From: Marinosulfonomonas sp.
Lineage (GTDB): Bacteria; Pseudomonadota; Alphaproteobacteria; Rhodobacterales; Rhodobacteraceae
Direction: 5' to 3'
Assembly (NCBI GenBank): GCA_015488685.1
Contig: WFNH01000032.1
Span: 1-41,234 of the forward strand
Length of the DNA stretch: 41,234 bases
Shown here: positions 10,874-35,746 of the stretch, in pieces
How the letters are laid out: each line of letters starts with the position of its first letter
Numbering within the stretch: position 1 is the first letter of the stretch
The notes under the pieces: generated by a model
Databases searched by the model: none
Told to the model about the DNA's origin: nothing
Seen by the model: only the letters and a program-made list of their open reading frames with translations
Position numbers and translations under genes: made by a program

Positions 10874-11614
10874 TTAGTAGGACAGGTCCATGCTGACTTC
10901 TCCGCCAGCATCGACAGTGATTTCACCGACTTTCTTTTCGCCAAGGAAACCATGCCACATCATAACCTTGTATGTGCCAGCCGGAATATCGGTGATCGAA
11001 AACGCCCCGTTTTCATCCACAACTGAAAAGTAAGGCGTTTTGGCGACGTAAACAAAGCCATGCATGAAATCATGGGCGTCACATTCCACTTTCATACCGT
11101 TCCCGCGGCGCAGTTTGATCACTTTGGTCAGAACGTCGCCTTTATTGGGTTGTGAAACATTCAGAACAGTTTTGCGCGCTTTGCCGATCTGTTCGTATGT
11201 GTGGATGTTGTGAAGCGTTCCGTCATTGTTCACCGCTGTCAGTTCGCCTGTATTGGCCATCACACCAAATGCCGGCGAAAACTCGCAATGTTCCTGATTG
11301 ATTGTCAATTTCATTAAATCTTCGGGCATGGCTTTGCCCTCTTCGATGTTAGACAGGAACACGACTGCACCTTTCAGCGTGCCGTTTTCGTTGATCTCGA
11401 CAAACGGAACTTCGCGAGAGCCTTCGCCACAGATCTTCGGGTCTTTCGAGATGGTGTAGGTGCGGGTGTCAGCCTTGGCGTCGCCAGCAGCAACAGTGCC
11501 GACAAAACTACCACCGTCAGTGACTTCGATTTCCTTATATCCCTTGGCACTTGCTGCAGTGGCCATCCCCAACATTGCCAACGCAATAGCAGACTTTTTC
11601 ATTATGTTTTTCAT
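10874..11614 (-). CDS. Periplasmic cupredoxin-like protein with C-terminal carboxypeptidase-regulatory-like domain
   Basis: A 246-residue exported protein with a signal peptide ending at ATASA-like sequence (TAASA, about residue 23). The central part carries a candidate mononuclear copper site: His in GTLHNIHTY, then the loop CDAHDFM followed by HGF. The C-x2-H-x2-M order is that of type 1 blue-copper sites. The last 55 residues or so (FSVVDENGAFSITDIPAGTYKVMMWH) look like the beta-sandwich domain seen in carboxypeptidase-regulatory and methylamine-utilisation-type proteins. It may carry electrons or deliver copper in the periplasm; this is inference. GAAAGGAAG precedes the ATG at suitable distance. 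It is second in the operon that starts with the HEAT-repeat gene. Confidence 0.75.
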   Translation of the reverse strand: MKNIMKKSAIALAMLGMATAASAKGYKEIEVTDGGSFVGTVAAGDAKADTRTYTISKDPKICGEGSREVPFVEINENGTLKGAVVFLSNIEEGKAMPEDLMKLTINQEHCEFSPAFGVMANTGELTAVNNDGTLHNIHTYEQIGKARKTVLNVSQPNKGDVLTKVIKLRRGNGMKVECDAHDFMHGFVYVAKTPYFSVVDENGAFSITDIPAGTYKVMMWHGFLGEKKVGEITVDAGGEVSMDLSY

Positions 11615-11640: not shown

Positions 11641-13815
11641 TTACGCGACTTTCAAAGCCTCTTCTCGAGGTCGTTGTTGAAACAGTTCGGCCAGCGCATC
11701 AATCGCAACCAGCCAGCGTGCTTTCTGGCTTTCGTCCGACAACAGTTCCAACAAACGGGCGGCACCGGCCTTTGGGGCGAATTCCCCCAGCAGTTTGCCG
11801 ATATCGCGGCGATATGTGCCGTCATGGCTGACAGCAAACAACACCAACGCATCTACGGACGCATCACCATAGAGACGCGCCAATGCGCGGGCAGCTGCAA
11901 TTCCAACGCCCAGATAGTCATCATCCAGTGCGTCAATCATTTCCTTGCCTGCCAGATTGCGGTGGTCCATTGCACGGATGGCCTCGACACGAACCAGCGG
12001 ATCGGGATTTTGCAGCATGTCGAGAAGGGCCGCATCGATATCGGCCCCTTTGATCCACCCCATCGCCCGCGCCGCTAGAACACGGGTTTCCGATGTTTCG
12101 CTCTCCAGCAGGTTTTTCAGCGGCTCCAACGCAGCATCAGGCAATGCACCCGTTTGTTCGCCATGTTTGGCCAGCGAAAACAATACGCCGTGAAGCACGT
12201 CGTCCTCGACATCCTTGTCCAACACCTTGATCAGAGTATCGGTAACCTCGCTATTTACAACGCCCCCTAGCAAACGGGCCGAAAACCGCCGCACATCCTC
12301 GTGTGGTGCTGCCGCTGTCTCCCATGAAATCTTGCGTTTGGCGTGCTTGCGCTTTTTGGTCATATCCAGAAAACGCTGATCCACCTCGTTTAGAATTACC
12401 TCTTCAGGCTCTTCCTGCGGGACATCCGGCCGGTTTGTCTTGATTGCTTCCAATGTTGAAACTGCCGGGGTGCGTTTCTCGGCGACCAGCGGCAGGTCCT
12501 CGTCTATTTCTCTGGCAATTTCTTCGGTAATTTCAGGAAGCGGCTCTTCTTCAACCTCTTCTTCAGGCTCTTCAGGCGACAATACCAATTCACCATTCAA
12601 ACCTGCAATCAGCCCAATACCGGCATCATTTGGCCATTTAGGATCGTTTGCCGCAATTTCAGCTAAAGCCGTGAGCGCAGCAAGCCGCAGATGGCGGTCC
12701 GCATCGCCAGCAGCATGTAACAATGCAGGTACAGCAACATCACCAGCACCCTGAACCGCCTCGATCACACCGACACGGAACTCCTGCGGAATGGATTGGT
12801 CCCCCAGAACATGCAACAGCCCTTTGGCGGCTTCCGCCCCCCTAAGGGCCATAAGTGCAAGGGCAGCCTGTTTGGCGGCCTTGGGTTCACCCGCGATTGC
12901 CTTTTGCACTGCGTTTCCCAGATCGTCATCCTGAAACTTGTCCGGGTTTGCTGCAATTATGCGGAACACCTCGATACGCACTTCCGGTGCAGGATCCTTG
13001 ATCAAATCCCACAGCAAAAGATCATTTTGCAAACCGGCATGCTTTACAACTGCGGCCCGAACACTTGCATCCTTGTCTCCGAAAAGGGGTTTCAAACGAT
13101 CATCAGACGGTTCAAGGTTCTCAAGGGCAAGGCGGCGGATTTCCGGCTTTACATCCTCGATCATCCCTCCACGCAGGGCATCCAGTGCCGGGTTGTCGGA
13201 TTTACCAACGGCCTTTACTATGCGGCGACACATGCGTGTATCACCCTTGGCATAAAGATCAATAATTGCATGTGCACCCGGTTCGCCCATTTTTGACAGG
13301 GCTGCCAAAACCGGCTCTGTCAGATCCTGAGCTTCTTCGTCCAGCATCGCCCCAACGATTTCGGGCACTGCGTCCTGAGGCGCAAATACGGCCAGCCCTT
13401 CGATGGCCGACATCTGGATATCCACCCAGTCATCCCAGCCGGAAACATAAAACTCGTCCTCGTCCCAAGCGACTTCGTCATTGCTGCGGGAAACGGCCAA
13501 TTTACGCAACAACGGCACAACAGGTTCGTAGCGCATGGCGATAAGCGCCTTGATTGCAGCGCGTTTTACGTCAGCCTCGGGGTCACCGATCAGGTTCTCC
13601 ATCAGTTTTTCGGCTGTAGTCGGATCGTTCAGCTGCTCCAACGCCGTGGCTGCATCAACGCGAACATCCGGGTCTTCATCCAGCAATGCCTTGACCAGAG
13701 ATTCTGCTGTTTCCGGCATCCCCATACTACCCAACGCCCGCGCAGCGGCACAGCGATGGACATCAATTCCCTTGTCCAGAATTTCGGTTAATCTATCGCG
13801 CGCTTTGGTTTTCAT
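11641..13815 (-). CDS. HEAT-repeat scaffold protein
   Basis: A protein of about 724 residues built almost entirely of HEAT-type helical repeats, with recurrent segments such as DVRVDAATALEQLNDPTTAEKL, ADVKRAAIKALIAM and LVRVEAIRAMDH. A strongly acidic Glu/Pro/Asp linker (about residues 411-500) splits the repeats into two arrays. There is no signal peptide, so it should act in the cytoplasm as a binding scaffold; PBS-lyase-like HEAT proteins can bind cofactors, but nothing here shows a catalytic site. I start it at ATG 13815, which follows AAAGGTGGTAGGA; the frame is open upstream to 13872 but that would cross the likely promoter. It is the first gene of a seven-gene operon, 57 bases downstream of a TTGAC-N4-GTCAA box. 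Confidence 0.8.
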   Translation of the reverse strand: MKTKARDRLTEILDKGIDVHRCAAARALGSMGMPETAESLVKALLDEDPDVRVDAATALEQLNDPTTAEKLMENLIGDPEADVKRAAIKALIAMRYEPVVPLLRKLAVSRSNDEVAWDEDEFYVSGWDDWVDIQMSAIEGLAVFAPQDAVPEIVGAMLDEEAQDLTEPVLAALSKMGEPGAHAIIDLYAKGDTRMCRRIVKAVGKSDNPALDALRGGMIEDVKPEIRRLALENLEPSDDRLKPLFGDKDASVRAAVVKHAGLQNDLLLWDLIKDPAPEVRIEVFRIIAANPDKFQDDDLGNAVQKAIAGEPKAAKQAALALMALRGAEAAKGLLHVLGDQSIPQEFRVGVIEAVQGAGDVAVPALLHAAGDADRHLRLAALTALAEIAANDPKWPNDAGIGLIAGLNGELVLSPEEPEEEVEEEPLPEITEEIAREIDEDLPLVAEKRTPAVSTLEAIKTNRPDVPQEEPEEVILNEVDQRFLDMTKKRKHAKRKISWETAAAPHEDVRRFSARLLGGVVNSEVTDTLIKVLDKDVEDDVLHGVLFSLAKHGEQTGALPDAALEPLKNLLESETSETRVLAARAMGWIKGADIDAALLDMLQNPDPLVRVEAIRAMDHRNLAGKEMIDALDDDYLGVGIAAARALARLYGDASVDALVLFAVSHDGTYRRDIGKLLGEFAPKAGAARLLELLSDESQKARWLVAIDALAELFQQRPREEALKVA

Positions 13816-13871
13816 TGTCCTACCACCTTTATTCAGTCGTGGTAGCCTATCGATTCCGGTTTTTCGGCGCA

Positions 13872-13885
13872 TTGACGTGCGTCAA
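13872..13885. promoter_or_regulatory. CRP/FNR-family box TTGAC-N4-GTCAA ahead of the HEAT-repeat operon
   Basis: TTGACGTGCGTCAA is a perfect inverted repeat, 57 bases before the HEAT-gene start. If it acts in the class II position (centre about -41.5), transcription would start near 13837. The minus strand then has TAGGCT at 13844-13849, a weak match to a -10 element. It differs from the two TTGAT boxes of the island only in the fifth base of each half-site. Confidence 0.5.
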
Positions 13886-13978: not shown

Positions 13979-16657
13979 CTAGATTACGATGTCACGCGGC
14001 GCAAAGGACATCGACCGGAAACTATGTTTGTATGGTGATTCACCGATCTTGGTGACCTTCGCCACACCCATTTTATAGTTATAGTTCCCGCTGATCCAGT
14101 CAACCACACGTCCGGCCAGTGCATTTGCCGGTTGGCTTGTATGCAGGAAGTCCATGTACATGACCCCCTTCTTGACTGCCCGTGTTACAATCGCAACCGC
14201 GGTTACCGATGCTTCTGAAAGCTCGACGTTCCCATTGGCCATTTGTCCGGCAAAGGAATAGTCAGATCCTTCAACACCCAGAATGATGTCTTTTAATGCC
14301 GGCACACGATCGTTGGACAACAGAACCATATCACCGCTTTCAATGCCGCGTGCTGCTGCATCATCTTCGTTGATCTCGACCCAGTTGTCCGGCCAACGCT
14401 GGACAATATAAGGACGGCGCGTGTCATCAAAACCTGACTGCCAACGTTCGTTGGCGCGGCCGGATGTGCACCATAGTTCGTCGCCCTTTGGCTTCATCCA
14501 TTCCCAATAATCCGAGAACAGAGACCAAGGTGATTTCTGGATGTTACACTTACCGGTTTGCGAATTGAAATGCGTCAGCTTTTTGTTGAACATATTCGCA
14601 GCAGTCGGGCCATCAGCAGGCAGTTTGCGCGTTGTGTCATGCAGACGAACGGTGCCCATCAAAGACCCATCAGCATTCATATACACAGGTGCCTGGATAC
14701 CATTGGTCCCCATTTCGCGGAACTTCTCATGCAGGGTTTTGCCTTCACGGTGTGCAGCGATCTTGACCATATTAAAGTCTTTGCGGCTACCACGAGTGAA
14801 TTTGGCTGCTTCTTCCGCGACATCATTGGAAGTCTCCCAATCATATCCGTCAAAGCCCATTTTCTTGGCAAGTTGCGAAATGATCCACCAGTCCGGTTTT
14901 GCTTCGCCGGGTGCATCATAGAACTTTTGATACAGACGAACACGACGTTCACCATTAGCCCGCAAGAAATCTTCTTCGCCCCAAGTTGCGGCCGGGAAGA
15001 TGATATCTGCAAACTGGTTACCGATTGGATCAACCAGATAAATGTCCTGATTGACAATAACCATGCCACCGCTATCAACACGCGCCTTAAGGGTCTCAAG
15101 GATTTTGTCGCGGTTGATCGACTGGATCTGGTGCGGGTTGCCACGGGTCAGTTCATGGAACCGTTGCGACAATTGCTGGGAACCCAACATCGACTGAATC
15201 CATGTCGTGCCGATAACATGGGCCATACGGGTGTGACCCGATACCGTCCAAGTATCCGTATCAAGTGCACGACGACGACGACCAGGCAGCTTCATTGGTG
15301 ATTTATTACGGGGATAGCTACCACCCGAAACACCACCACGCTGGTGACCACCGGCGCGACCGATCATCTGACCGGGACGACCGCCGGCACCTACAGTAAT
15401 GCCCAAGGCTGCAATCGCCTCTGTATTGCCTGTGTTATTGGACCAGTAAAAGCCTTTTTCGATCATGATCGAGGTCTTCGGACGTGATCCGTCTTCTTTT
15501 GGCTTGGCCATCATCTCGGCAGCCAGTTTGATTTTTGCAGCATCTACACCAGTCACTTCGGATGCAGCGTCAAGGGCAAACTCATCCTGACCCAGCAACC
15601 ATTTGCTCCAATCATCAAACCCTTTGGTCTGGAATTTGCCCCATGTGGTGCGCCACTGCCAAGGCGTGTTCCGTGTGCCCTGACCAAAGCCCGAGGACGA
15701 ACCCCACTTGTCATTGACCCACTTCTCGATCCACTCTTTGTCTTGCCAGCCGTTTTCAACGATAACCCGTGCGATCGCATTCACAAGCAGCAAATCCGTG
15801 CCCGGATTGACATCCAGCCATAAGCCGCCATTTTGCTCGGCAAAGGCAACACCAGCGGTTTTGCGCGGAACCATAAAGATGGCTTTCTGACCACCCTGAA
15901 TTGCCGGCATGATCCACTGTGTAAACATGATAGTTTTGGTTTCATAGGGATCAGTGCCGCAAATCAGCAGTGTTTCTGCATCTTTCCAGTCCTGATATGA
16001 AGGCCCAAAATTATCAAACCCTGCATCACGGAAACCCGGTGTCGCGCCAACATTGGACGGCGCATCATGGTTGGCGAAATTCGCAGTGTTAACCGAACGC
16101 AGTGCATATTTGCGAATTGCATAGGTGTTTTCGATGTACTGATAGCTATAGCTTTTAACGCCATAAGCATTTGCCCCGAATTTCGCGATGACATATTTTG
16201 CCATTTCAGCCGCAATATCCAGCGCGAAGTCCCATGTGACCGGCTGAAGCATACCATAGATACGCATCATTGGCGACTTCAGGCGATCGCGTGTCGGTGT
16301 TTCAGGGTTATAGCATTTCTGCGCAATACAACCACCACGAAGCGACGAGTCACCATTTACGTTTACGGCTTCTGCCGCTTTGTCGGGGATGATCACAACG
16401 TGATGAGGTTCACCGTCATGCAGCACGATATTGTGCTGGTTGGGGGCAACCCACGGGCCAAGCGCCTGAACGGGGAAATCCTCGCCAAATGCATTCTGGT
16501 CCGCCATTGCGCCACCGTTCTTGCCGCCCTTAACGGGCCAACGGTAGACTTTGTAGCCACAGGCCACGATGCAGTAATCGCAGGCTGTGGTGATAACTTC
16601 CGCATCTGCCGGGGGCAGAGGGACGTTCTCGTCTGGGATATAATATGGAGTTGACAT
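13979..16657 (-). CDS. idrA: Iodate reductase catalytic subunit (AioA-family molybdoenzyme)
   Basis: An 892-residue molybdopterin oxidoreductase of the arsenite-oxidase (AioA) clade. The N-terminus has C26-x2-C29-x3-C33 in ACDYCIVACGYKVYRW, close to the AioA motif. At the usual fourth ligand position there is Ser (SSLRGG, about 104-109), which predicts a [3Fe-4S] cluster. It lacks its own export signal, so like AioA it is probably carried to the periplasm by its Tat-targeted Rieske partner. Known arsenite-oxidase operons do not carry two dihaem peroxidases, whereas dissimilatory iodate reductase loci (idrA, idrB, idrP1, idrP2) do, which is why I favour iodate reductase. The reaction would be iodate reduction with electrons from the periplasmic chain. 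An AGGAGAGGAAG ribosome site precedes the ATG, 13 bases after idrB. Another AioA-like activity is not excluded. Confidence 0.8.
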   Translation of the reverse strand: MSTPYYIPDENVPLPPADAEVITTACDYCIVACGYKVYRWPVKGGKNGGAMADQNAFGEDFPVQALGPWVAPNQHNIVLHDGEPHHVVIIPDKAAEAVNVNGDSSLRGGCIAQKCYNPETPTRDRLKSPMMRIYGMLQPVTWDFALDIAAEMAKYVIAKFGANAYGVKSYSYQYIENTYAIRKYALRSVNTANFANHDAPSNVGATPGFRDAGFDNFGPSYQDWKDAETLLICGTDPYETKTIMFTQWIMPAIQGGQKAIFMVPRKTAGVAFAEQNGGLWLDVNPGTDLLLVNAIARVIVENGWQDKEWIEKWVNDKWGSSSGFGQGTRNTPWQWRTTWGKFQTKGFDDWSKWLLGQDEFALDAASEVTGVDAAKIKLAAEMMAKPKEDGSRPKTSIMIEKGFYWSNNTGNTEAIAALGITVGAGGRPGQMIGRAGGHQRGGVSGGSYPRNKSPMKLPGRRRRALDTDTWTVSGHTRMAHVIGTTWIQSMLGSQQLSQRFHELTRGNPHQIQSINRDKILETLKARVDSGGMVIVNQDIYLVDPIGNQFADIIFPAATWGEEDFLRANGERRVRLYQKFYDAPGEAKPDWWIISQLAKKMGFDGYDWETSNDVAEEAAKFTRGSRKDFNMVKIAAHREGKTLHEKFREMGTNGIQAPVYMNADGSLMGTVRLHDTTRKLPADGPTAANMFNKKLTHFNSQTGKCNIQKSPWSLFSDYWEWMKPKGDELWCTSGRANERWQSGFDDTRRPYIVQRWPDNWVEINEDDAAARGIESGDMVLLSNDRVPALKDIILGVEGSDYSFAGQMANGNVELSEASVTAVAIVTRAVKKGVMYMDFLHTSQPANALAGRVVDWISGNYNYKMGVAKVTKIGESPYKHSFRSMSFAPRDIVI

Positions 16658-16670: not shown

Positions 16671-17252
16671 TTAACCGTGCAGGTTGTCTTTGCGGCCGAA
16701 AATCAGGCCGAAGATTCCGGTGGCGTAGATATCGTCACCATCGAGTTCCAGCAGAACCTGCGGAAGGCTTTGGTAAGCCTGGCCGGAAATCAGGATGCCG
16801 TGGCGCGTCAAGTCATAGGTCGACAGATGCAACGGACAGGCGCCCAGTGATTTCGTATCGGGTTTATAGCTGTCGTAAAGCGAACCACCCTGGTGGGTGC
16901 AGGCATAGTTGAAGGCAACAACGTCCTGGCCTTCGCCAATACCGCCGCCCGCTTTCACGCCCATTTTAACGATCATCGAGTCGGCATGTTCGCCTTCATC
17001 GGGGTAGGAGAAATCGAACGGTTTATCCAATTCCAGTTCCGACATTTTCGCGATCAGTTTACGCGGGAATTCGGTGATCTGCGCTGGCACTTCTTCGGCC
17101 ATCGGGGTCCCCGGATTCATCGTGATCATGATCGTTGTTGTGACACCGGTGCTGATCAGGAAGTTGCGGCGGGAAACCAGGCATTTGTGCCCGATTGCTT
17201 TGGCAATCTCCTTACGGCGTTCACCGGTCGGTTTTTGTAGTTCATGTGACAT
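16671..17252 (-). CDS. idrB: Iodate reductase Rieske subunit
   Basis: A 193-residue Rieske [2Fe-2S] protein of the AioB type. A twin-arginine signal with SRRNFLIS (27-34) precedes a hydrophobic stretch. The cluster ligands are C118-T-H120 and C139-P-L-H142. The residues that follow each pair (QGGSL and LSTYD) are as in the arsenite oxidase small subunit, and the stabilising disulfide of bc1-type Rieske proteins is absent. It would transfer electrons between a periplasmic cytochrome and the molybdoenzyme, and guide the folded pair through the Tat system. It lies between the peroxidase gene (23-base gap) and idrA (13-base gap), in one transcript. Confidence 0.85.
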   Translation of the reverse strand: MSHELQKPTGERRKEIAKAIGHKCLVSRRNFLISTGVTTTIMITMNPGTPMAEEVPAQITEFPRKLIAKMSELELDKPFDFSYPDEGEHADSMIVKMGVKAGGGIGEGQDVVAFNYACTHQGGSLYDSYKPDTKSLGACPLHLSTYDLTRHGILISGQAYQSLPQVLLELDGDDIYATGIFGLIFGRKDNLHG

Positions 17253-17275: not shown

Positions 17276-18430
17276 TTACTCGGCAGCCCGCGCTTCATAG
17301 GGTGGCAATTCGGGTGGATCGACGCGCAGCTCGTCGCCGCTAAATGCCTCAAGGAAGGCAACCAGCTGATCCATTTCCTCGTCAGTCAGGCCCAGAGGCT
17401 TGATCTTGTCGGATTTGGTCGAGGCCATCGTGCCATCGGTGAAGTCATTTTCACCACCACCGGCGTTATAGAACTCTACAACTTCGCGCAGATCCCAGAA
17501 CGAGCCGTTGTGCATGTAGGGCGCCGTATACAACGTGTAGCGCAGAGGCGGCGTACGGAATTTACCCATATGCTCAGGCTCTTTGGTGCGGAAATACAGG
17601 CCCGGATCGTCTTTCAGCTTACGATACATCTCCTGCGGCACACCTTTTGCATACAGCTCGTAACGGAAGGAAACCTGCGCAAGGCCATCATCCTCCCAAC
17701 GCTCTGCAGGTGGAACACCAAGGTTATAGTAGTTCTCATCTGTTGCTTGCGGTCCATTGTGGCACTGAATGCAACCCGCCTTGCCGTTGAACAGCTTCAT
17801 ACCGGCAACCTGTTCATCCGTCAGTGCGGATTTGTCACCAGCCAGATACTTGTCAACAGGTGTGTCGTTCACAATCAGGGTGCGTTCAAAAGCAGCAATT
17901 GCGCGCCAAGCATCACCGATCAAAGGATAATCCGTTCCAAATGCTTCTTTGAAGCGCTTGCGATATTCAGGAATAAACGCCATGCGCGTTTCCATCACAT
18001 CGTTTTCACCGTTACCGGCGACCGCACCTTTGGCAGCACTTGGCGCCTGCTTTTCAAGCGAAGCAGCGGCACCCGCCCAGAACAACTGTCCCAGATAGGC
18101 CGAGTTGATTACTGACTGCGAGTTACGCCAGTGAACCGTGCCGGGATATCCGCGCGACAGTGAATCACTAAATGCCCAACCTTGATCAGGTTCATGGCAG
18201 GTGACACAGGCTGTGGACGCATCACCGCCGATACGAGGGTCCCAAAACAGAATTTTTCCAAGTTCGATTTTGGCTTCCGACTGCTTGTTATCAAGCGGGA
18301 TAGGCGGTTCACCAAGCGGTGCCAGTGGCGGGTATTTCGCCATTTCTCCAGCATTGACCATGGCCGCCGAAACTGCAACAGCAGCCACCCCAGCCATTAA
18401 TGTAAGTGTTTTCTTCATCGTTTTCATCAA
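17276..18430 (-). CDS. idrP: Dihaem cytochrome c peroxidase-family protein (IdrP)
   Basis: A 384-residue periplasmic protein of the bacterial dihaem peroxidase/MauG family with an N-terminal signal peptide (cleavage near residue 27). Two c-type haem sites are present: C75-V-T-C78-H79 and C220-I-Q-C223-H224. A TAPYMHNGSF segment (about 302-311) is typical of the second haem domain. In iodate reductase loci two such proteins (IdrP1 and IdrP2) are proposed to remove hydrogen peroxide formed during iodate reduction. I cannot tell from sequence alone which of the two numbers this one should carry. It is adjacent to idrB and starts 12 bases after the other peroxidase gene. The C-terminus is Pro- and acid-rich. 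Confidence 0.85.
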   Translation of the reverse strand: MMKTMKKTLTLMAGVAAVAVSAAMVNAGEMAKYPPLAPLGEPPIPLDNKQSEAKIELGKILFWDPRIGGDASTACVTCHEPDQGWAFSDSLSRGYPGTVHWRNSQSVINSAYLGQLFWAGAAASLEKQAPSAAKGAVAGNGENDVMETRMAFIPEYRKRFKEAFGTDYPLIGDAWRAIAAFERTLIVNDTPVDKYLAGDKSALTDEQVAGMKLFNGKAGCIQCHNGPQATDENYYNLGVPPAERWEDDGLAQVSFRYELYAKGVPQEMYRKLKDDPGLYFRTKEPEHMGKFRTPPLRYTLYTAPYMHNGSFWDLREVVEFYNAGGGENDFTDGTMASTKSDKIKPLGLTDEEMDQLVAFLEAFSGDELRVDPPELPPYEARAAE

Positions 18431-18442: not shown

Positions 18443-19561
18443 CTAGTTCGGCACTTCGCGCCAGTTTTCGATGGCGGGATAGTTGGTTGGAATTTCATCT
18501 TCCCAGACATATTCGGGACCGGTGAGCGGATCACCGGAAAGAGCCTCAAGGAAAGCCACGAGATCTTGCTCTTCCATAAACGTCAGACCCAAAGGACGTA
18601 CTTTGGGGTCAAGGTTCGGGGTGCCTTCACCACCTGCGTTATAGAAAGAAACGATATCGGACAGGTTCTTGAACATACCATTATGCATGTACGGCGCAGT
18701 ATACTTCAGCTCGCGCAATGTTGGTGTTACGAACTTGCCAATATCGCTGCCATCTGCGGGATGGCGAATAATCTGCGCGCCAACATCTTGACTGATGTTC
18801 TGATAGTTCTGAACGCCCATAAACATAGCAAAAGCCGCATATGTCATATTGCGCATTGGATCGGACCAGATATCAGGGTTCTCGGGAACCCCCATGTTGT
18901 GAGCCTTGCCATCTGTAAAACGCGGGCCATAGTGGCAATCAATACAACCGGCTTTGCCTTCAAACAGAGCCCGACCACGTTTTGCCGCATCCGACATAGT
19001 ACCTGTATCAAAAGGTGAACCTTTTGAAATCAGGGTCTTCAAATATTCAGGAATTGCCTTGCGCACAGAGCCGTTCGAAGGTTCGCCATAACCGGCATCC
19101 GCAAACATCTTTACATAAACCGGATCCTGCTTGATGCGTTCCTGCATCAGGCGCATGTCCAGATTCATGCTATAATCTTCGGTGATGCTTTCACGGGTTA
19201 CATCATTCAGGTTCGTACCCAAACGCCCGTCATGGAACCAGTTATCTGCAAGTGCGGTGTTGACCAGTGTTGGCGTATTACGGAAGCCTTTCGAACCCGG
19301 ATAAGCCTGCGAAAGAGCCAGACCGTCTGTAAAGGCTTTGTCTGGCTGGTGACATGTTGAACACGAGATAGCAGCATCGCCAGACAGACGCGGATCGAAA
19401 AACAAACGCTTGCCAAGCGCCGCTTTGGCCTCGTTGAATTCGGGGCCTACGACAGGCCCGATTGCCATGTCTTCAGCCGTTACCGGACCGGAAAGCACCG
19501 TGGCACACATCAATGCTGCCCCCAGCGTTACCGAACCGCTTTTGAACCGAGATATCTTCAT
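18443..19561 (-). CDS. idrP: Dihaem cytochrome c peroxidase-family protein (IdrP), first gene of the iodate reductase operon
   Basis: A 372-residue exported dihaem peroxidase homologue, clearly paralogous to the next gene. The signal peptide ends near residue 29. Haem sites are C67-S-T-C70-H71 and C206-I-D-C209-H210, and the segment TAPYMHNGMF (about 288-297) matches its neighbour. The role proposed for IdrP proteins is peroxide disposal, or possibly electron transfer, alongside IdrAB in the periplasm. It is the first gene of the four-gene transcript; AGGGAG lies a few bases before the ATG. Upstream are three tandem stem-loops and an FNR box, which suggest control by oxygen and possibly by leader structure. 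The P1/P2 numbering is not decided. Confidence 0.85.
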   Translation of the reverse strand: MKISRFKSGSVTLGAALMCATVLSGPVTAEDMAIGPVVGPEFNEAKAALGKRLFFDPRLSGDAAISCSTCHQPDKAFTDGLALSQAYPGSKGFRNTPTLVNTALADNWFHDGRLGTNLNDVTRESITEDYSMNLDMRLMQERIKQDPVYVKMFADAGYGEPSNGSVRKAIPEYLKTLISKGSPFDTGTMSDAAKRGRALFEGKAGCIDCHYGPRFTDGKAHNMGVPENPDIWSDPMRNMTYAAFAMFMGVQNYQNISQDVGAQIIRHPADGSDIGKFVTPTLRELKYTAPYMHNGMFKNLSDIVSFYNAGGEGTPNLDPKVRPLGLTFMEEQDLVAFLEALSGDPLTGPEYVWEDEIPTNYPAIENWREVPN

Positions 19562-19723: not shown

Positions 19724-22003
19724 CTATTGTTGACTGAAACGCTTTCTTGCCCGCCAGGCGATGACCAGAAACAGCAGCCCGGCAAGCAGCGCAGCAGCAA
19801 TCGCAATCCCCATGATTTTGGTCGGGTTTTCGGTGGGTTCCAGCAAAATCCAGTACCATGCAGTAAAGCTGTTCTGGATACCTTTTTCGCCATTCACCCC
19901 ATCCCATGCCGCAAAAGCAATTGGCGTATAGACACCTTCACTGAATTGCAGATCTTTGGCGGATTCGGTTTCTAACGGGCGGTTAAAGACCACTTGCCAC
20001 TGTCCATCGGCCCATTTGCCTTTGGCACTAAGGGCGGAACTGTCTTCGCGTGGTTTAGGCGCTTTGTCCAAACCGACCGCATCCATGATGACAGCTGTTT
20101 CATCGGCGGCAGGTTCAACCGAAGGCGCGGTCCAGACCCACATATTGACGGGGTTCTTTTTGTCCCCCTGACGAAAGTAGGGTTTTTCGTTGGTGCCCGA
20201 CAGAGCCGCCGGAATCTGCACTGCAATTGCATCGCGGGTCGCCTCGACACCATCAACAGCATAGGCTTTCTCCAGATCCGAACCGGGGACCGAATAGGTG
20301 CGGTCATCGACATCAACCCGCATGGAAATGTCCTTGTCATTATAAAGGGCACGCACGGTGACGAATTCGGTCAGAGTTGTGAACAGGCGGGGTTCCTTGA
20401 TAATGTTCGGAGCAACATTGAAGGTCATCGCAGGGGCAGTATCCCACAGCGGATCGGCCGGATCGGTTGGCAGATCGCCATCCACGCGGATCGCTTTGAT
20501 CACAGATTCGCCTTTGGAAACCGGTACAGCGGCATCGCGCAGTGTCATCACATAATTGGCCACAGCCCAACGGGTTTTGATGTCCAGCGCTGTGGTGTGC
20601 TCGGGCATTGGCGACGACGGAATCCCGACAGACAACCGCTGGAACACATCCTCGACATCGCGCGTCACACGCCAGCTTTCGGGGTGGGTCAGGTTGCGGG
20701 GCCAGATACGGTTGCCCGCGTCATCGGCCAGACGTTTGCCCGATGTAATGTTCCCGCGCCCTTTCATGCCATGACAGGCCGCACAAATGCTTTCGAATTT
20801 CTCTTTGCCCAGCGCCAGCAATTCGGGCGTGACTTCGGGCTTTGTTCCCAGATCAATCGGACTTAACTCGTCCGGCTCGACATCGTCCCAGTATCCAAAC
20901 ACCTTGATCTTCTGGATCAATCCATCAATTTCGGCATCAGACAGGATTTCGCCCCAAGCTGGCATCGCCGTGCCGGTCAGACCGTTCTTGATGGTATTGC
21001 GCAAATCATCATCAGACGGGAATTCCGAGTTGTTATCGGTGGTTTTGTATTTGAACAGGCCAAGGGTGAAATCACGCGGCTTGGGATACATCCGTTCCGC
21101 CGCCACCCCCAGACCGTCACCATCCACACCGTGGCACTGCGAACAGCGTTTCATGTAAACGGCGTCGATCTGTTCTTCTGTCAGCGCGGCGTTGGGATCG
21201 ACCGGCGCAGGCGCGACCGCATCGGCAGATTTTTCTTCCAGCTCCCATGAACGCGGCTCGTATCCGGTATAGTCATAGAGGAACGAAATGATCTTCCAGA
21301 CTTCGTCCTCTTTTAGCATTTCTTCCCAGACCGGCATCGCCGAGGCCCAGGGCGTGCCCTCGCGTGGCAGGCCGGGGCCGCCTTGGGTGATGCGCCAGAA
21401 CAGGAAGGATTCCTGCAACTGTGCGATCATCCCGACGTCCTGAAAGTTGATCGGGCGCGGGGTGAAGGTTTTGGCAAAATGGCCTTCGCCGTTCAGCAAA
21501 TCACCGTGGCAGTAGACGCAGTTCTTATAATAAAGCTGCGCCCCTTCGGCGACAATCGCCTGATATTCATCTGACGTTTTATCAAACTGTTCGCGGTATG
21601 GGTTTTGCAATTTAAGCAGATCATATGTCTTGCCATAAGCATGCAGGCTGGACGGTGGCGCGGGGTGAACCGTGCGCAATTCCAGCGGCGATGTGACGGA
21701 CGGCTTGACCATGTCATACGTCAAATAGCCAACACCGCCAACCACCGCCGCAAAAGCAGCAATGCGGGGCAGTAACATTTTCGGCGAACCAAACAACGCC
21801 ATCAACGGCGCAAAGAATCTGGCCGCCATTTTGTTGTCGAACGTCACAACCAACAGCACAGCAACCGTGCAGATGATCATATACTGGATCAGCAGGGACG
21901 CCGGCACAGGCGGGTTCAGCACATAGGCGAAGACCACATAAAGCGCTGTCAAAAGAAGAACCGACAGGAACAGGGGGTGTTTGAAAAAGCGCATCATATT
22001 CAT
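19724..22003 (-). CDS. Membrane-anchored trihaem cytochrome c with EB_dh-like haem b domain
   Basis: A 759-residue electron-transfer protein. Two or three hydrophobic helices lie in the first 100 residues. Three monohaem cytochrome c domains follow, with C162-V-Y-C165-H166, C287-S-Q-C290-H291 and C407-A-A-C410-H411. Each has a downstream Met-Pro candidate axial ligand (M223, M347, M466). Residues about 500-715 look like the beta-sandwich EB_dh/DMSO-reductase gamma domain that binds one haem b in ClrC, SerC and EbdC. A final membrane helix (about 729-749) precedes a basic tail. It follows the other trihaem gene after three bases, so it is the last gene of the bd-like operon. It probably links the membrane complex to periplasmic enzymes such as the iodate reductase. 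Confidence 0.82.
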   Translation of the reverse strand: MNMMRFFKHPLFLSVLLLTALYVVFAYVLNPPVPASLLIQYMIICTVAVLLVVTFDNKMAARFFAPLMALFGSPKMLLPRIAAFAAVVGGVGYLTYDMVKPSVTSPLELRTVHPAPPSSLHAYGKTYDLLKLQNPYREQFDKTSDEYQAIVAEGAQLYYKNCVYCHGDLLNGEGHFAKTFTPRPINFQDVGMIAQLQESFLFWRITQGGPGLPREGTPWASAMPVWEEMLKEDEVWKIISFLYDYTGYEPRSWELEEKSADAVAPAPVDPNAALTEEQIDAVYMKRCSQCHGVDGDGLGVAAERMYPKPRDFTLGLFKYKTTDNNSEFPSDDDLRNTIKNGLTGTAMPAWGEILSDAEIDGLIQKIKVFGYWDDVEPDELSPIDLGTKPEVTPELLALGKEKFESICAACHGMKGRGNITSGKRLADDAGNRIWPRNLTHPESWRVTRDVEDVFQRLSVGIPSSPMPEHTTALDIKTRWAVANYVMTLRDAAVPVSKGESVIKAIRVDGDLPTDPADPLWDTAPAMTFNVAPNIIKEPRLFTTLTEFVTVRALYNDKDISMRVDVDDRTYSVPGSDLEKAYAVDGVEATRDAIAVQIPAALSGTNEKPYFRQGDKKNPVNMWVWTAPSVEPAADETAVIMDAVGLDKAPKPREDSSALSAKGKWADGQWQVVFNRPLETESAKDLQFSEGVYTPIAFAAWDGVNGEKGIQNSFTAWYWILLEPTENPTKIMGIAIAAALLAGLLFLVIAWRARKRFSQQ

Positions 22004-22006
22004 CCC

Positions 22007-23146
22007 TTATTCAGGCAGGTTCATGAGGTAATCGACAATCAATGACAGTTCGCTGTCATCCATCTGGTCGGCAAAGTCGTCCGGCATCATATCAGCCTCG
22101 AATCCATCGGCGATCGTATCGTTGGGATTCAGAATTGCGGTTTTGATCTGATCCGCAGACATCCGCTTGCCAATCCCGTTCAGTTTAGGTCCGACATCGG
22201 CTTCGGACCCGTCCAGATCGTGGCAACCGGCGCAGCCGAATTTGTCGATCACTTCCAACGCAGTTGTTGCCAGTGGCTCTTCTTCCCCATCATCTGTCGC
22301 GGGGGGTGTATCCGGCAAGGACATCAAATAATCCGCAAGAACCAACAGTTCAGACCCCCGCAAGGATTCGCCGAAATCAGCGGGCATCACATCCGCATCA
22401 AAGCCATCGGCAATCACCGCATTCGGCGCGATGATGGATTCGATCACACCAGCACGATCCATCCGTTTGCCGATACCGTATAATGACGGGCCAATATCCG
22501 CCCCGCTTCCGTTCAGATCATGACAGGCTGCACAGCCATATTCGCCGATAATATTTTCACCCGATGTCAGCAGGGGCGCGGGTTCACCGCCTCCATCACC
22601 GGAATCATCCGAAACCGGCGTATCTTCTGCGCTTGGCAGAGGCACTGTTGGTTCCAGCCCAGCAAGATCTTGTAAAAATGCCGTGACAGCATTCATTTCG
22701 ACCGCAGACAATTCAATCGGCGCCTTATCAACCACCGGCATCGGCGATTCCGTATCGTTGGTGCCTTTTTTACCAAAGCCCGCAACAACATAAGCAGACG
22801 GGTCTTTCATTGATTCAAGGATATAATCCTCAATCGCCTTGGCGCCCTCTTTACCCGCAGCAACACCTGTGTAACGCGGATCAGCCAAACGTTCGGGGAA
22901 CGTCGCCGCCATATCCATTTCCAGCGTATCAGGTGCGCGGCCCATGCCGTTGTGGCACAGGGTGCAAGTGCCTTTGCCCTTATAGATCGTTTCACCAAGG
23001 GCGATCATGCCATCCATATCCAGACCATCGGTCGAGACCTCGACCGGTTCGGAAGTATCCGGCACCACTTGCGGCAACAAATGGGAAATTCCCATGAACG
23101 CCAGCAACATGACAACACTGAAACCGATAACGCGAAGGAAATTCAT
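22007..23146 (-). CDS. Trihaem cytochrome c with internal duplication
   Basis: A 379-residue periplasmic cytochrome with an uncleaved-looking N-terminal hydrophobic segment (about 6-24). Haem sites are C61-T-L-C64-H65, C205-A-A-C208-H209 and C305-A-G-C308-H309. The second and third domains are close copies of each other; both have DLxGSxADxGPxLxGIGKRM, an ADGF(D/E)AD stretch and a Met-Pro pair (about 254 and 354). A Pro/Asp/Gly linker separates them from the first domain. Its start overlaps the stop of the bd-like gene in ATGA, so the two proteins are made in coupled fashion. It is probably an electron donor to, or acceptor from, that membrane protein. Confidence 0.85.
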   Translation of the reverse strand: MNFLRVIGFSVVMLLAFMGISHLLPQVVPDTSEPVEVSTDGLDMDGMIALGETIYKGKGTCTLCHNGMGRAPDTLEMDMAATFPERLADPRYTGVAAGKEGAKAIEDYILESMKDPSAYVVAGFGKKGTNDTESPMPVVDKAPIELSAVEMNAVTAFLQDLAGLEPTVPLPSAEDTPVSDDSGDGGGEPAPLLTSGENIIGEYGCAACHDLNGSGADIGPSLYGIGKRMDRAGVIESIIAPNAVIADGFDADVMPADFGESLRGSELLVLADYLMSLPDTPPATDDGEEEPLATTALEVIDKFGCAGCHDLDGSEADVGPKLNGIGKRMSADQIKTAILNPNDTIADGFEADMMPDDFADQMDDSELSLIVDYLMNLPE

Positions 23147-24900
23147 GCTGCGTCCTCCGTCCCTTTTTGCTTGGTCTGGCCCAGCCGTGACAGCCAGAAC
23201 ACAAATACCATGATCGCCATGAACCCAAGGGTGATTGCAGTAATCACATTGCCCGCATCCCCCAGTGTCGGGATATAATTTTCAGGCGAGTTGTCCTTCA
23301 TGATCGTATAAACATGCCAGTTGGTGCGCAGGCTGGAGCGGATATACCCCATCAGCCCCATCAGCCATGTAAACGCCACCGGCAGCACGAACAGCGCGTA
23401 TTGCGACCTGTTGGTCATTCGGCCCCAGTAAACCTTTTCGGGCTTTGAGCCGCGTAGACGGAAGACATCAATCAACACCGAACCGATGATAATCGTCAGT
23501 GTGCTAACCACCTGCGGAACCGAGGCACCGACCTTGTAAACAGTCGGGGTAATATAGCCGTAAATACCGGCACTGACGATGTTGGTTATCCCCACCACAT
23601 ACAGCGCAACCACAATCATATTGCCCGATTTTGCCCAGCTAACCGTTGGTATACGGGACGAGCGATAGAACAGCTGGAACGACAGGAACGTCATCACCAG
23701 CATCAGGTTCACAGCCGTATTTTTGGCTGGCATGATCCCCAGTGGGCCAAGGATTTTGTGGTGCGTTCCGCCAAGGTTCTGGATTTCATTTGCCGTCAGG
23801 ATCAACGTGTGCGGCGTCAGCCAGACAAGGAAACCGCCAACCACGACAACCGCGATGTATTTCACATATTTTGCATACTCCGCCCCGCGATCTGTGCGCA
23901 TCAGGCCCGACCACAGGTAATAATTCGCCGCCAGCATGATCGTCCCGATCAACACCGCCTGAATAATAAACAGCCACGCCAGAATCCCGCCCATCGCGGT
24001 GATCCCCATTTGCTGGGAATAGGCGTAAATCTCGGCCATCAGCCAGTAGCCGGCGAACGGCAGCGGAATGAAACCAAGGATGGCGATGAAGTTCGAGGTA
24101 TAGCCCATCCAGTCATAATGCGCTTTCTTCTCGGGGTCTTTTTCGGCCAGGAACATGTAAGCAGCATAGCCCCCTACAATCGCGCCGCCATAAGCGATAT
24201 TGGCAAGGAAACGGTGCAGGTTCAGCGGGTTCCACAACGGGTTGCGCGTAGCCTCCCATACGGTGCCGGTGACAGCGCCCGTCGGATCAACGCCAGCGGG
24301 CGACATCATAAAGCTGACCCATGCGTTGGCGATGAACATCAAGGTCAGGCCAACGGTGTTCAACAACAGGCCAATCGACATGTGATACCATTTGCGATTG
24401 CCGCGCCGCAGGGCATCCCATGAGTAAAAGTAGACATAAAGCGTAATGGATTCGAGGCCGAACAACATCGCATAAATCAGCATCTGCCCGCGGAACACCT
24501 TGACCATATAGCCCATCAGATGCGGGTAGAACACCAGTAAAGACAGCAACAGGCCACCACCAACCAAAGCGGTCAGCGAATAGGCGGCCATTGTGATCTT
24601 CATGAATTCACGCGCCATGCTGTCATAGCGGTCATCGCCGGTAACCACGCTCATAAATTCGGTTGCGATGGCGAACAGCGGCACCGCCAGAACGAACGCG
24701 GCAAGGAACAGGTGCATCTGCGCCGCGCTCCAGACAACGGTGCGCCCGCTCACACCGCCAATCATCGGATAATCCAGACGCGAGGGTTTCGGCGCCCCCT
24801 CCAGAACAGCCGCCGCCTGGTCGGCAGCAGCAAGCGCCAGTTCAGGCGCGAAAAGCAGAACAAAGGCGGCAAACAGGGCCAGCAAGCGAGATAGTTTCAT
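23143..24900 (-). CDS. Cytochrome bd-superfamily membrane oxidoreductase lacking a Q-loop (CydA-like)
   Basis: A 585-residue membrane protein with an N-terminal signal-like segment and about a dozen further helices. Features of CydA can be aligned: His63 in AQMHLFLAAF, Glu150 in GLESITLYVYFYSWD, His229 in NLHRFLANIAYGG, and Glu290 in GYWLMAEIYAYS, which takes the place of the CydA GW-x3-E-x-GRQPW motif. The long quinol-binding Q-loop that CydA has between its sixth and seventh helices is absent: only a short hydrophilic turn (about 252-265) is present. Instead there are extra C-terminal helices. This fits the bd-superfamily branches thought to use cytochrome c rather than quinol. No cydB follows; two trihaem cytochromes do. 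Whether it reduces oxygen or another oxidant is unknown. Confidence 0.75.
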   Translation of the reverse strand: MKLSRLLALFAAFVLLFAPELALAAADQAAAVLEGAPKPSRLDYPMIGGVSGRTVVWSAAQMHLFLAAFVLAVPLFAIATEFMSVVTGDDRYDSMAREFMKITMAAYSLTALVGGGLLLSLLVFYPHLMGYMVKVFRGQMLIYAMLFGLESITLYVYFYSWDALRRGNRKWYHMSIGLLLNTVGLTLMFIANAWVSFMMSPAGVDPTGAVTGTVWEATRNPLWNPLNLHRFLANIAYGGAIVGGYAAYMFLAEKDPEKKAHYDWMGYTSNFIAILGFIPLPFAGYWLMAEIYAYSQQMGITAMGGILAWLFIIQAVLIGTIMLAANYYLWSGLMRTDRGAEYAKYVKYIAVVVVGGFLVWLTPHTLILTANEIQNLGGTHHKILGPLGIMPAKNTAVNLMLVMTFLSFQLFYRSSRIPTVSWAKSGNMIVVALYVVGITNIVSAGIYGYITPTVYKVGASVPQVVSTLTIIIGSVLIDVFRLRGSKPEKVYWGRMTNRSQYALFVLPVAFTWLMGLMGYIRSSLRTNWHVYTIMKDNSPENYIPTLGDAGNVITAITLGFMAIMVFVFWLSRLGQTKQKGTEDAA

Positions 24901-24910
24901 AATCAGCCCC

Positions 24911-25039
24911 CTAAACCGGCATCAGATCAGCGCCGACCGGCAACCCCTGACCTTCCATGATCGACTTGTCGATGAAGTAGAAAACAGCAACCCAGACAAC
25001 CAGAGCCACCACAAATACCAGCCACTTGTTTCCCAACAT
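24911..25039 (-). CDS. 42-residue single-helix membrane peptide
   Basis: A small gene with ATG 25039 and TAG 24911-24913. The peptide has one hydrophobic helix (about 6-23, LVFVVALVVWVAVFYFI) after MLGNK and a short polar tail. AAGGAAG lies six bases before the ATG, and the bd-like gene starts ten bases after the stop. The position and size recall the small stabilising subunits of bd oxidases (CydX, CydH) and of cbb3 oxidase (CcoQ), but there is no clear sequence match. It is probably a subunit of the bd-like complex. Confidence 0.7.
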   Translation of the reverse strand: MLGNKWLVFVVALVVWVAVFYFIDKSIMEGQGLPVGADLMPV

Positions 25040-25077
25040 ACGGACTTCCTTATTATTCTTTTGCCTTCAAGCGCGCG

Positions 25078-25203
25078 CTAGCGATGAATCGAAACAATCC
25101 CGTGGTCGTACAGCAGCAACCACCAGAAAAAATACAGCATAGCGACAGCGGTCAGCGTAAAAACCAGCTTGCCCAACAGTGTGTTTTCGTTCTTTTCAGA
25201 CAT
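25078..25203 (-). CDS. 41-residue single-helix membrane peptide, first gene of the bd-like operon
   Basis: A small gene with ATG 25203 and TAG 25078-25080. The peptide starts with a charged MSEKNEN segment and has one membrane helix (about 12-32) rich in aromatic residues (MLYFFWWLLLY), ending DHGIVSIHR. AGGGA precedes the ATG by a few bases, and the second peptide gene begins 38 bases downstream. It is the first gene after the FNR box at 25282-25295. It is probably a small subunit of the bd-like complex. No family is recognised. Confidence 0.65.
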   Translation of the reverse strand: MSEKNENTLLGKLVFTLTAVAMLYFFWWLLLYDHGIVSIHR

Positions 25204-25323: not shown

Positions 25324-25632
25324 CTAAAACGCCACCCCGCAAGATTGCGAAATCCGCTGACGCAGACGGGCCATATAATCCGGCATCGCTTCGTCTTCTT
25401 CGCGTGGCACAAGGAAAATCAGTTTGGCGGCAATAATATACGGGCGGCGTTCCTTGCCTTCACCCGGTGTCGGACTGGTCAGAATTTCCTTAACCAACGC
25501 TACTGTTTGTGTCGGATTTTCGCAAAACCGCGGCAGGGCGGATTTGTTAGCGTACCAATCGGCACTGTTGAAAATGAACAGCATAACCGCGGCTGTTAAA
25601 GCAAAGACAATCAGAATCCGGTGCACATTCAT
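25324..25632 (-). CDS. Small membrane-anchored hypothetical protein
   Basis: A protein of about 102 residues if started at the ATG 25632 (MNVHRILIV), although the frame stays open to 25701. One N-terminal membrane helix (RILIVFALTAAVMLFIFN) is followed by a soluble part of about 75 residues with two cysteines (in PRFCENP and the near-terminal SQSCGVAF), which could form a disulfide in the periplasm. I do not recognise the family. Its stop is 29 bases from the FNR box, and it is divergent from the FNR-type gene. A plausible ribosome site is the AAGGGG directly before the ATG, which is rather close. Confidence 0.5.
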   Translation of the reverse strand: MNVHRILIVFALTAAVMLFIFNSADWYANKSALPRFCENPTQTVALVKEILTSPTPGEGKERRPYIIAAKLIFLVPREEDEAMPDYMARLRQRISQSCGVAF

Positions 25633-25703
25633 CCCCTTGTTGCGGGCAAATCCAAGGGTTGATTGTTTCACAAATCCTGCACCGATACGCCACCCCGCCA
25701 CCC

Positions 25704-25824
25704 GAATTGTTACAATTCTTTACATCTCGCAACGCAATGTAACGAATTCAAAATCTTGGCGAAACATCCCGCATCTAATGTCCAAAACTGAAATTGGTGG
25801 TTGGGTATATCCCTAAACCACCAA
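25704..25824 (+). promoter_or_regulatory. Regulatory region of the FNR-type gene with two inverted repeats
   Basis: Two dyads lie between the divergent genes. One at 25704-25718 has seven-base arms GAATTGT/ACAATTC around one base. A second at 25794-25824 has nine-base arms TTGGTGGTT/AACCACCAA with an inner GGG/CCC pair, and ends six bases before the AAGGA ribosome site. The second could be a leader hairpin near the ribosome site or an operator. No TTGAT box is present here. Confidence 0.5.
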
Positions 25825-25846
25825 ATGTTTAAGGATACCAACCCGA

Positions 25847-26614
25847 ATGAGCACCCTACCCGCTGTTAAATGCCAGAACTGTTCGCTTTATACCGAAGCG
25901 GGCAGTCTATGCGCGCAAATTACCTCGGACGAACTGGACAGGCTAAGTAATAAATCCCGCACTGCCACTCTGAAGCGGGGTGAAAGCATTGACACCGAAG
26001 AGCTGTTGATGTGGCCAATCATTGCCATTTCATCCGGCGTTATCAGCCTGCAACATTTGCTGGAGGATGGACGCAAAACAATTGCTGCGTTTTTCATGCA
26101 AGGCGATATTATCGACATGCGCGGCATTTCCAGTCGCAACCGTGGCCATCTGATTGCCCTGAACAAGGTCAACCTGTGCCGCCTGTCACCCGCCGCATTC
26201 GAAACCATTATTGAAAAGAACACCGACGCCCAGCGCGTTGTCTGGGACAATCTGCGCAAACAAACCTACCGCGCGATTGACCACTCTGCCGATCTGGCCA
26301 AGAAACACGCGCTGGAAAAGCTGGCATCATTCATCTTTGAATGCAAACGTCGCCAGACCATCACCTTGTCGGAAAACAGCGTGACCATACCGGTGCGCCG
26401 TGTTGATCTGGCCGAGTATTTGGGAATGCAGCCAGAAACCGTCAGCCGTAGCTTCAAAGATCTCGAAGATCGCGGGATCCTCGAGTTCAACGGCATCTCG
26501 AACATCCGCCTACTTAAAGCCCCGATCCTGCGGCGCATTGCGAACGGTGATAGAAATGCAGATGCAATCCAGCATCCATCTAAAAACAAATTCAAAGTCC
26601 TTAGCTTTGGCTGA
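25847..26614 (+). CDS. FNR-type (CRP/FNR family) oxygen-responsive regulator
   Basis: A 255-residue regulator. N-terminal cysteines C9, C12 and C22 plus C111 give the four ligands expected for an oxygen-labile [4Fe-4S] cluster; the second spacing (C12-x9-C22) is longer than in E. coli FNR. The cyclic-nucleotide-fold sensor domain (about 25-140) and dimer helix are followed by a winged helix-turn-helix (about 185-212). The recognition helix has E197-T-V-S200-R201, the same E-x2-S-R that reads TTGAT half-sites in FNR. Two perfect TTGAT-N4-ATCAA boxes in this window are therefore its likely targets. The 3-prime end overlaps hemH. It may be the island's own regulator or the cell's general FnrL. 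Confidence 0.85.
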   Translation: MSTLPAVKCQNCSLYTEAGSLCAQITSDELDRLSNKSRTATLKRGESIDTEELLMWPIIAISSGVISLQHLLEDGRKTIAAFFMQGDIIDMRGISSRNRGHLIALNKVNLCRLSPAAFETIIEKNTDAQRVVWDNLRKQTYRAIDHSADLAKKHALEKLASFIFECKRRQTITLSENSVTIPVRRVDLAEYLGMQPETVSRSFKDLEDRGILEFNGISNIRLLKAPILRRIANGDRNADAIQHPSKNKFKVLSFG

Positions 26615-31965: not shown

Positions 31966-31974
31966 ACATGATAA

Positions 31975-33223: not shown

Positions 33224-35746
<2,523 letters not shown>

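Follow-up and report, generated by a model that had tools for sequence, protein, structure and literature searches.

Why does a protein of the cytochrome bd family without a quinol site stand next to an iodate reductase? This question is raised by a contig of Marinosulfonomonas sp. (Rhodobacteraceae; WFNH01000032.1, assembly GCA_015488685.1), whose 41,234 nucleotides are called the window here. Its minus strand carries the iodate reductase (Idr) genes and, upstream of them, genes for a bd-like membrane subunit (bdA), two cytochromes c (cytC3 and cytEB) and two small peptides (s1 and s2). A preliminary description took these five genes, at 19724-25203, for an operon encoding an undescribed electron-transfer complex, which might feed Idr or remove oxygen near it. 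On balance, we favour the reading that the five products form a membrane electron-transfer complex of the type that accompanies nitrite oxidoreductase (NXR), paired here with Idr and likely working toward iodate reduction. We agree with that description on an electron-transfer complex that lacks the quinol loop, has many haem c sites and is tied to idr; the word undescribed does not hold, as a matching module has already been reported beside NXR (PMC3578206, PMC6606698, PMC8026999, PMC11791136). The five genes were confirmed as real and lie beside idr as described, but the conserved block is far larger than the proposed operon and covers window 5576-25701. The genes on which the argument turns are given below in the order of their transcription.

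25078..25203, minus strand: s1, one-helix peptide of 41 amino acids (aa) with the motif FfWWlliYdHGv
24911..25039, minus strand: s2, one-helix peptide of 42 aa with the motif D..iM..QGLPv..dlmP
23143..24900, minus strand: bdA, bd-like membrane subunit of 585 aa with a PF01654 match and the CydA fold
22007..23146, minus strand: cytC3, cytochrome c of 379 aa with an N-terminal hydrophobic stretch and CXXCH at 61, 205 and 305
19724..22003, minus strand: cytEB, 759 aa, three haem c sites (CXXCH at 162, 287 and 407) plus an EB_dh domain, hydrophobic at both ends
18443..19561, minus strand: idrP2, dihaem peroxidase/MauG-like (PF03150, 135 bits)
17276..18430, minus strand: idrP1, dihaem peroxidase/MauG-like (PF03150, 130 bits)
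16671..17252, minus strand: idrB, Rieske subunit (TIGR02694, 107 bits)
13979..16657, minus strand: idrA, molybdenum subunit of the iodate reductase type, by identity to plasmid idrA and by the IdrA tree

The residues 58-306 of bdA match PF01654 with 62 bits (cut-off 26). Its AlphaFold2 (AF2) model (pLDDT 77, pTM 0.80) aligned with ten CydA structures at VIA Z values of 28.6-31.4 across 344-359 residues, so the structural check suggested in the preliminary description shows the CydA fold in this protein. The CydA residues named here follow the E. coli numbering. Four candidate haem ligands had been proposed for bdA, and His63, His229, Glu150 and Glu290 were all invariant in 101 of 101 aligned relatives. 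In the sequence-profile alignment, His63 corresponds to CydA His19, Glu150 to Glu107 and His229 to His186. Glu290 is not known to correspond to any canonical CydA ligand. Left out of this count were the CydA outgroup, L003, which is the window again, and the G125 type-2 gene in its two copies (L016 and L020); in alignment A1, the same residues are invariant in the G125 type-2 gene too. Two bd-like modules were seen near idr in L025, L026, L028, L032 and L172, one with a 585-aa and one with a ~720-aa bd-like protein, which are ~40% identical, each with haem c genes of its own.

The loss of the quinol-binding loop was borne out. The residues ~280-480 of bdA form transmembrane (TM) helices in the model, at the position of the CydA Q-loop (TM6-TM7), and no Q-loop of the CydA type was seen there, as the region is helical in the model and the local CydA profile match stops before it. 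The extra helices had been placed at the C-terminus; they sit at the Q-loop position, and a weak alignment of the C-terminus indicates that the last part of bdA still corresponds to CydA TM8-9. Gln314, Glu372 and His381 are among the invariant residues of the insertion. A CydB partner was likewise absent, with no CydB family match among the 17 cluster proteins in a Pfam scan.

A protein with this fold might be an oxygen reductase of the OR-N type that oxidises cytochrome c, either consuming O2 near Idr or serving as a terminal oxidase at low O2. The invariant equivalents of His19, Glu107 and His186 agree with this, and the literature describes relatives of the OR-N type as putative oxygen reductases that oxidise cytochrome c (PMC10839748, PMC12342949). 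In the structural comparison, 9 of the 37 rows at ranks 14-50 were haem-copper oxidase subunits, aligned mainly on the inserted region of bdA, but with Z at 6-7.7 they fall under the noise level given for helical bundles, and we do not claim this resemblance. However, CydA Glu99 is replaced by Tyr143, which is invariant in 101 of 101 relatives. In a weak C-terminal profile alignment, whose template CydA appears to lack Glu445 as well, Leu516 stands at the position of Glu445. In the same weak alignment, Leu516 is flanked by the conserved Met514 and Met517, and GRQPW of CydA reads LRTNW. The genome of the window already carries two canonical CydA proteins, the adjacent regulator is FNR-like, and a cluster of this kind has been reported in anaerobic anammox bacteria (PMC3578206). 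Judged from these residues and neighbours, O2 reduction by the bdA complex, including the oxygen removal near Idr suggested before, is less likely, and we regard this explanation as rather improbable.

In a scan of genome contigs, 126 relatives of bdA were obtained, and the counts out of 80 rest on the best 80 of these 126. By title, these loci belong to Alpha- and Gammaproteobacteria, except for one Candidatus Lambdaproteobacteria and a few named Proteobacteria only; nearly all are metagenome-assembled genomes (MAGs). The hosts include Thiodiazotropha, Beggiatoa-like bacteria, Sedimenticola and Marinosulfonomonas. An operon found mainly away from idr had been named as the result that would speak against a link, and the opposite was observed: idr genes are present in 76 of the 80 genomes with a close bdA relative, idrA itself in 73. 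They lie inside the bdA locus in 39 of 80 cases (idrA in 36; for L074, L104 and L111, idrP1/P2 are seen and the stretch then ends), and for the other 41 genomes idrA was found elsewhere in the genome in 14 of 15 and 23 of 26. Searches of locus and genome found no idr genes for L072, L077, L097 and L112. A search of plasmids for bdA gave no match. The bdA tree was built without identical copies, from hits of at least 430 aa and 150 bits, and neighbour clustering was done without L055, a copy of the L024 contig.

The two genes were also counted in draws of evenly spread genomes. Among 289 alphaproteobacterial genomes, bdA was present in 10, idrA (E 1e-150) in 11 and both in 7; for 274 gammaproteobacterial genomes, the numbers were 12, 10 and 8. 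The co-occurrence gave Fisher values of 1e-9 and 3e-11, respectively, uncorrected for kinship and with the centre genomes included. Each draw contains a centre genome (G000, G293) picked for having bdA; leaving it out, bdA, idrA and both were found in 9, 10 and 6 of 288 and in 11, 9 and 7 of 273 genomes. A weak match in G280 (25%; L014/L034) was not counted as bdA. The distance matrices of bdA and IdrA from 36 loci were correlated (r 0.63, reached in 0 of 2000 permutations); for L032 the type-2 bdA was used there, as the type-1 gene of this locus is incomplete. Six idr-only genomes were without bdA (G059, G148, G176, G184, G367 and G515). For G317, G396, G423 and G497, idrA was sought at E 1e-150 only, so a short fragment could be missed, while G044, G053 and G079 were negative at 1e-30 too.

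The haem c proteins connect this complex with NXR. The only sequences in the PDB matched by cytC3 at E 0.001 were three distinct ones, all of them Kustd1711 entries, the best with 64 bits; the match to 7zs0 had an E-value of 1.3e-16. Kustd1711 is a dihaem cytochrome from the nxr cluster of anammox bacteria; its haems have potentials near +350 mV, and that cluster also encodes blue copper proteins (PMC11791136). The EB_dh domain of cytEB (68 bits) is a haem b domain of the NxrC/EbdC type, in line with the first assignment; its closest PDB chain is 2ivf_C, with a weak match to NXR subunit C, and the c-type part is closest to 6h5l_B (113 bits). Six c-type haem sites had been counted and are present in the window, but this number is local. 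Three CXXCH motifs occur in 62 of 62 cytEB-like open reading frames (ORFs) of at least 600 aa, while most of the 75 cytC3-like ORFs of at least 200 aa in the 80 loci have two (55), and the rest three (18), four (1) or none (1). In two-copy loci, cytEB is split into a one-haem gene and a two-haem/EB_dh gene.

The two single-helix peptides recur as well. BLAST found s1 in 54 and s2 in 44 of the 80 loci and the alignments show shared motifs, which argues that they are not chance ORFs. The s1 start was set at the ATG at 25203; a further ATG at 25221 would give 47 aa.

A change of partner was seen as well. The NXR-type alpha gene of G317 was searched in 41 genomes and only G317 and G423 were positive, that is, 2 of the 8 bdA genomes without detected idrA versus 0 of the 33 others; the window genome had no NXR at E 1e-60. 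This alpha subunit matches Kuenenia NXR-A (7B04) with 1527 bits; the next chain reaches 178. No idrA was found in G317 and G423 at E 1e-150, and in both the NXR-type genes share one stretch with bdA and with genes for Usp/PCP_red, HemY-like and radical SAM proteins, which accompany the module in the window too. A cytC3 relative is present in both, and in G317 a cupredoxin relative (32%) stands after the NXR gamma gene. The presence of NXR along with the three accessory genes in two bdA genomes where idrA was not detected suggests that the partner enzyme swaps. The bdA of G317 falls inside a gamma clade of 32 rows, where 30 of the 31 others come from idr-bearing genomes (quick tree, SH-aLRT 95), so the partner appears to have changed at least there; the G423 protein is far more diverged (42%) and its tree position is unsure. 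These two genomes (L165 and L167) have a Kuenenia-type NXR in Gammaproteobacteria and are possible nitrite oxidisers.

The partner in the window is Idr. The idrA product there shares 50-66% identity with IdrA encoded on plasmids of Thiothrix, Azonexus and Vibrio, and the remaining 28 plasmid matches, at 26-31%, are mostly annotated as the arsenite oxidase type. The idrP2-P1-B-A synteny is present and the IdrA kinship is supported by a tree, from which repeated loci of one genome and sequences below 640 aa or 300 bits were dropped. The window IdrABP1P2 is predicted to reduce iodate.

The wider cluster holds further genes. Transcription runs from up125 through s1, s2, bdA, cytC3, cytEB, idrP2, idrP1, idrB and idrA to the HEAT-repeat gene and the cupredoxin, and continues with the FGE-sulfatase-like, Usp/PCP_red, radical SAM/PCP_red and HemY-like genes. 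Co-transcription of the bdA operon genes is probable, judging from overlap and spacing. In the single-contig genome G576 of the same genus, the stretch compared reaches from the regulator as far as the radical SAM gene and has the genes in identical order, which argues that the arrangement is no assembly artefact. The other members are as follows.

25324..25701, minus strand: up125, small conserved protein, matched in 39 of 80 loci
11641..13872, minus strand: HEAT-repeat protein, following idrA
10874..11614, minus strand: exported cupredoxin with a C-terminal beta domain
9909..10757, minus strand: FGE-sulfatase-like protein, not general in the cluster
8221..9867, minus strand: protein with two Usp and two PCP_red domains, the best genomic marker of the module
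6952..8217, minus strand: radical SAM/SPASM protein with PCP_red, NirJ2/AhbD-like
5576..6955, minus strand: protoporphyrinogen oxidase-like flavoprotein of the HemY type
25847..26614, plus strand: divergent Crp/FNR-type regulator
26400-27602, plus strand: ferrochelatase hemH (TIGR00109, 269 bits), at the cluster edge after the regulator

The type-1 copper ligands of the cupredoxin (H135, C178, H181 and M184) were invariant in 50 of 50 sequences, and its AF2 model (pLDDT 91) resembles plastocyanin (VIA Z 11.8 over 88 residues) and amicyanin (Z ~10). The HemY-like protein scores 248 bits with TIGR00562, far over the protoporphyrinogen oxidase cut-off of 98. The radical SAM protein is nearest to NirJ2 (TIGR04055, 300 bits) and heme b synthase AhbD (296 bits), both below the cut-off of 500, and shares the PCP_red domain with the Usp protein. 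It is plausible that these genes make or insert a tetrapyrrole needed by bdA. All carriers of Usp/PCP_red (E 1e-20) in the even draws, 9 of 9 Alpha- and 10 of 10 Gammaproteobacteria, also have bdA, and none of the six idr-only genomes carries it at this threshold, so it tracks bdA and not idr. The HEAT gene still follows idrA in three Alphaproteobacteria without bdA (G148, G176 and G184).

The regulator has cysteines 9, 12, 22 and 111, spaced as for the FNR cluster; 12 of the 13 listed relatives have all four and the thirteenth is incomplete. No FNR box was found in the intergenic stretch of the window, where the best site has 3 mismatches and was matched by 130 of 200 shuffles; sites with one mismatch occur in L046, L048 and L110 among 15 loci. 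An inverted repeat, TTGGTGGTT ... AACCACCAA, lies at window ~25793-25825 before the regulator gene and is a possible operator. The far cluster end (390-4759, minus strand) has a MoeA-type molybdenum cofactor gene, a nitroreductase-like gene and a PAS histidine kinase. Beyond the regulator, a resistance-nodulation-division (RND) efflux pair, a heavy-metal P-type ATPase and two dynamin-like GTPases are encoded at 27798-35746 and 37347-40816, a set that G576 shares in identical order.

Taken together, these data suggest how the module may work. The haem c groups of cytC3 and cytEB and the EB_dh haem b would connect the periplasmic cupredoxin and IdrAB with the bd-type membrane haems. Electrons from the respiratory chain would then pass at low O2 through the complex to the cupredoxin and on to Idr, exchanged at about +350 mV and above, and part of the energy would perhaps be conserved as proton motive force, while IdrP1/P2 would remove peroxide. 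Idr and NXR are otherwise quite different molybdoenzymes; what they share is a periplasmic oxyanion couple of high potential. It suggests that the module is an interchangeable adaptor for high-potential oxyanion enzymes.

The opposite direction was considered too, in which IdrAB would oxidise iodide (or hypoiodite) and the complex would pass the electrons to the respiratory chain. The iodate/iodide couple is at about +0.7 V, and since it is so oxidising, reverse transport to quinone would be steep. The module pairs with either NXR or Idr, and such a direction has been proposed for nitrite in NXR organisms; NXR was shown to be bidirectional (PMC8387239), and AioA, the nearest characterised family, is an oxidase. 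On the other hand, the published idr physiology is reductive, iodate being reduced far more in static, low-O2 conditions (PMC11445184). Together with the FNR-like cysteines of the adjacent regulator, this favours the reductive direction with Idr, and we consider iodide oxidation unlikely.

The close linkage to idrP1/P2 and to a Usp-domain protein might also point to a protective device, which would use electrons from cytochrome c to remove H2O2, hypoiodous acid or further by-products formed when iodate is reduced. However, G317 and G423 pair the module with NXR, where such products would not be expected, the published model already gives this role to idrP1/P2 (PMC8692401), and the six idr-only genomes manage without bdA. 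This explanation is therefore very doubtful.

Several observations weigh against the reading that we favour. Neither idrA nor NXR was detected in 5 of the 22 sampled bdA genomes, and Usp/PCP_red was missing in 3 of these 22 (G044, G396 and G497). Most of the genomes in the analysis are MAGs. The G423 stretch showed no cupredoxin, and a search of 170 gamma genomes gave two more NXR-like alphas (39-41%) in genomes that are not bdA-positive. In the IdrA tree, module-bearing and idr-only IdrA are intermixed (7 changes versus a shuffled mean of 8.6, with 32 of 500 shuffles equally low), so there is no special IdrA clade. The plasmid idr loci of Azonexus, Thiothrix and Vibrio are without the module in the stretch examined; in the annotated Azonexus and Thiothrix clusters, a cytochrome c and moaA follow idrA in its place. 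Direct electron transfer, like complex formation, electron route, direction, energy coupling and haem type, is what we infer from the gene content, conserved residues, folds, co-occurrence with Idr and pairing with NXR in two genomes that were observed.

Two other ideas were given up. A single clade of module-bearing IdrA was rejected by the tree, and an operon serving idr alone was dropped in view of G317, G423 and the bdA genomes with neither enzyme. As Idr occurs elsewhere without the module, Idr itself does not depend on it; the gain from the module would be energy conservation or a different electron source.

A broader form of our proposal is offered tentatively, as a possibility and no firmer than that. 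The bd-type subunit, with a special tetrapyrrole that the NirJ2/AhbD-like radical SAM, HemY-like and Usp/PCP_red proteins would build or insert, could form an exchangeable respiratory module that couples periplasmic high-potential oxyanion molybdoenzymes to proton motive force, running uphill with NXR and harvesting the cytochrome c-to-iodate step with Idr. If this is true, the Idr-paired module would be an oxygen-free counterpart of complex IV. The linkage to idr in marine Proteobacteria and the pairing with either NXR or Idr allow the function of the module to be tested by comparison; the prediction is that it works for a periplasmic molybdoenzyme of high potential and not for nitrite or O2 in particular. 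They also suggest that electrons may reach iodate by way of the membrane, which bears on how iodide forms in seawater poor in oxygen, and they connect tetrapyrrole genes with a protein of the bd type.

Among known systems, the canonical quinol oxidase CydAB (qOR) shares the CydA fold and the His19/Glu107/His186 equivalents with bdA, but bdA has no Q-loop, the cluster has no CydB, Glu99 is lost and Glu445 apparently so. The OR-N and OR-C branches of the bd superfamily, compared here by description only, are alike in having a cytochrome c-linked bd-like protein without a quinol site (PMC10839748, PMC12342949), and other bd-like complexes have been described in Mn-oxidising Nitrospirota. The iodate-reduction island idrABP1P2 of Denitromonas, Pseudomonas SCT and Azoarcus has the same four genes in identical order; the survey reports that gene neighbourhoods of idr are poorly conserved (PMC8692401), whereas the block of the window is conserved. 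We found no literature linking iodate or idrA with a bd-type protein by title or abstract start, subscription papers and preprints being outside the scope of this search.

The closest system is the NXR-linked module. NXR in Nitrospinae, Nitrospirae and anammox bacteria is accompanied by a bd-like protein without Q-loop, an alternative NxrC, di- and trihaem cytochromes c and cupredoxins (PMC3578206, PMC6606698, PMC8026999, PMC11791136), and this module was proposed, without proof, as a membrane anchor, a complex for reverse electron flow or an oxidase (PMC3578206, PMC6606698, PMC8026999). The paper on Nitrospinae gives a glutamine at a copper-ligand position in the bd-like protein of the cluster conserved in nitrite-oxidising and anammox bacteria (PMC8026999). 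Both kinds have a bd-like subunit of ~14 helices without Q-loop, an NxrC-type protein with a TM helix and haem c, further haem c proteins, a cupredoxin, a Kustd1711-type cytochrome and, in some genomes, duplicate copies; on this architecture and the match of cytC3 to Kustd1711, the two modules appear to be kin. The window differs in that the partner is idrABP1P2 and not NXR, the alternative NxrC is fused with a monohaem cytochrome, the hosts are Alpha- and Gammaproteobacteria, and tetrapyrrole and Usp/PCP_red genes are linked, which go unmentioned in the portions of the NXR-cluster descriptions considered here. What is new is an NXR-type bd-like module in a conserved cluster with an iodate reductase, in Alpha- and Gammaproteobacteria.

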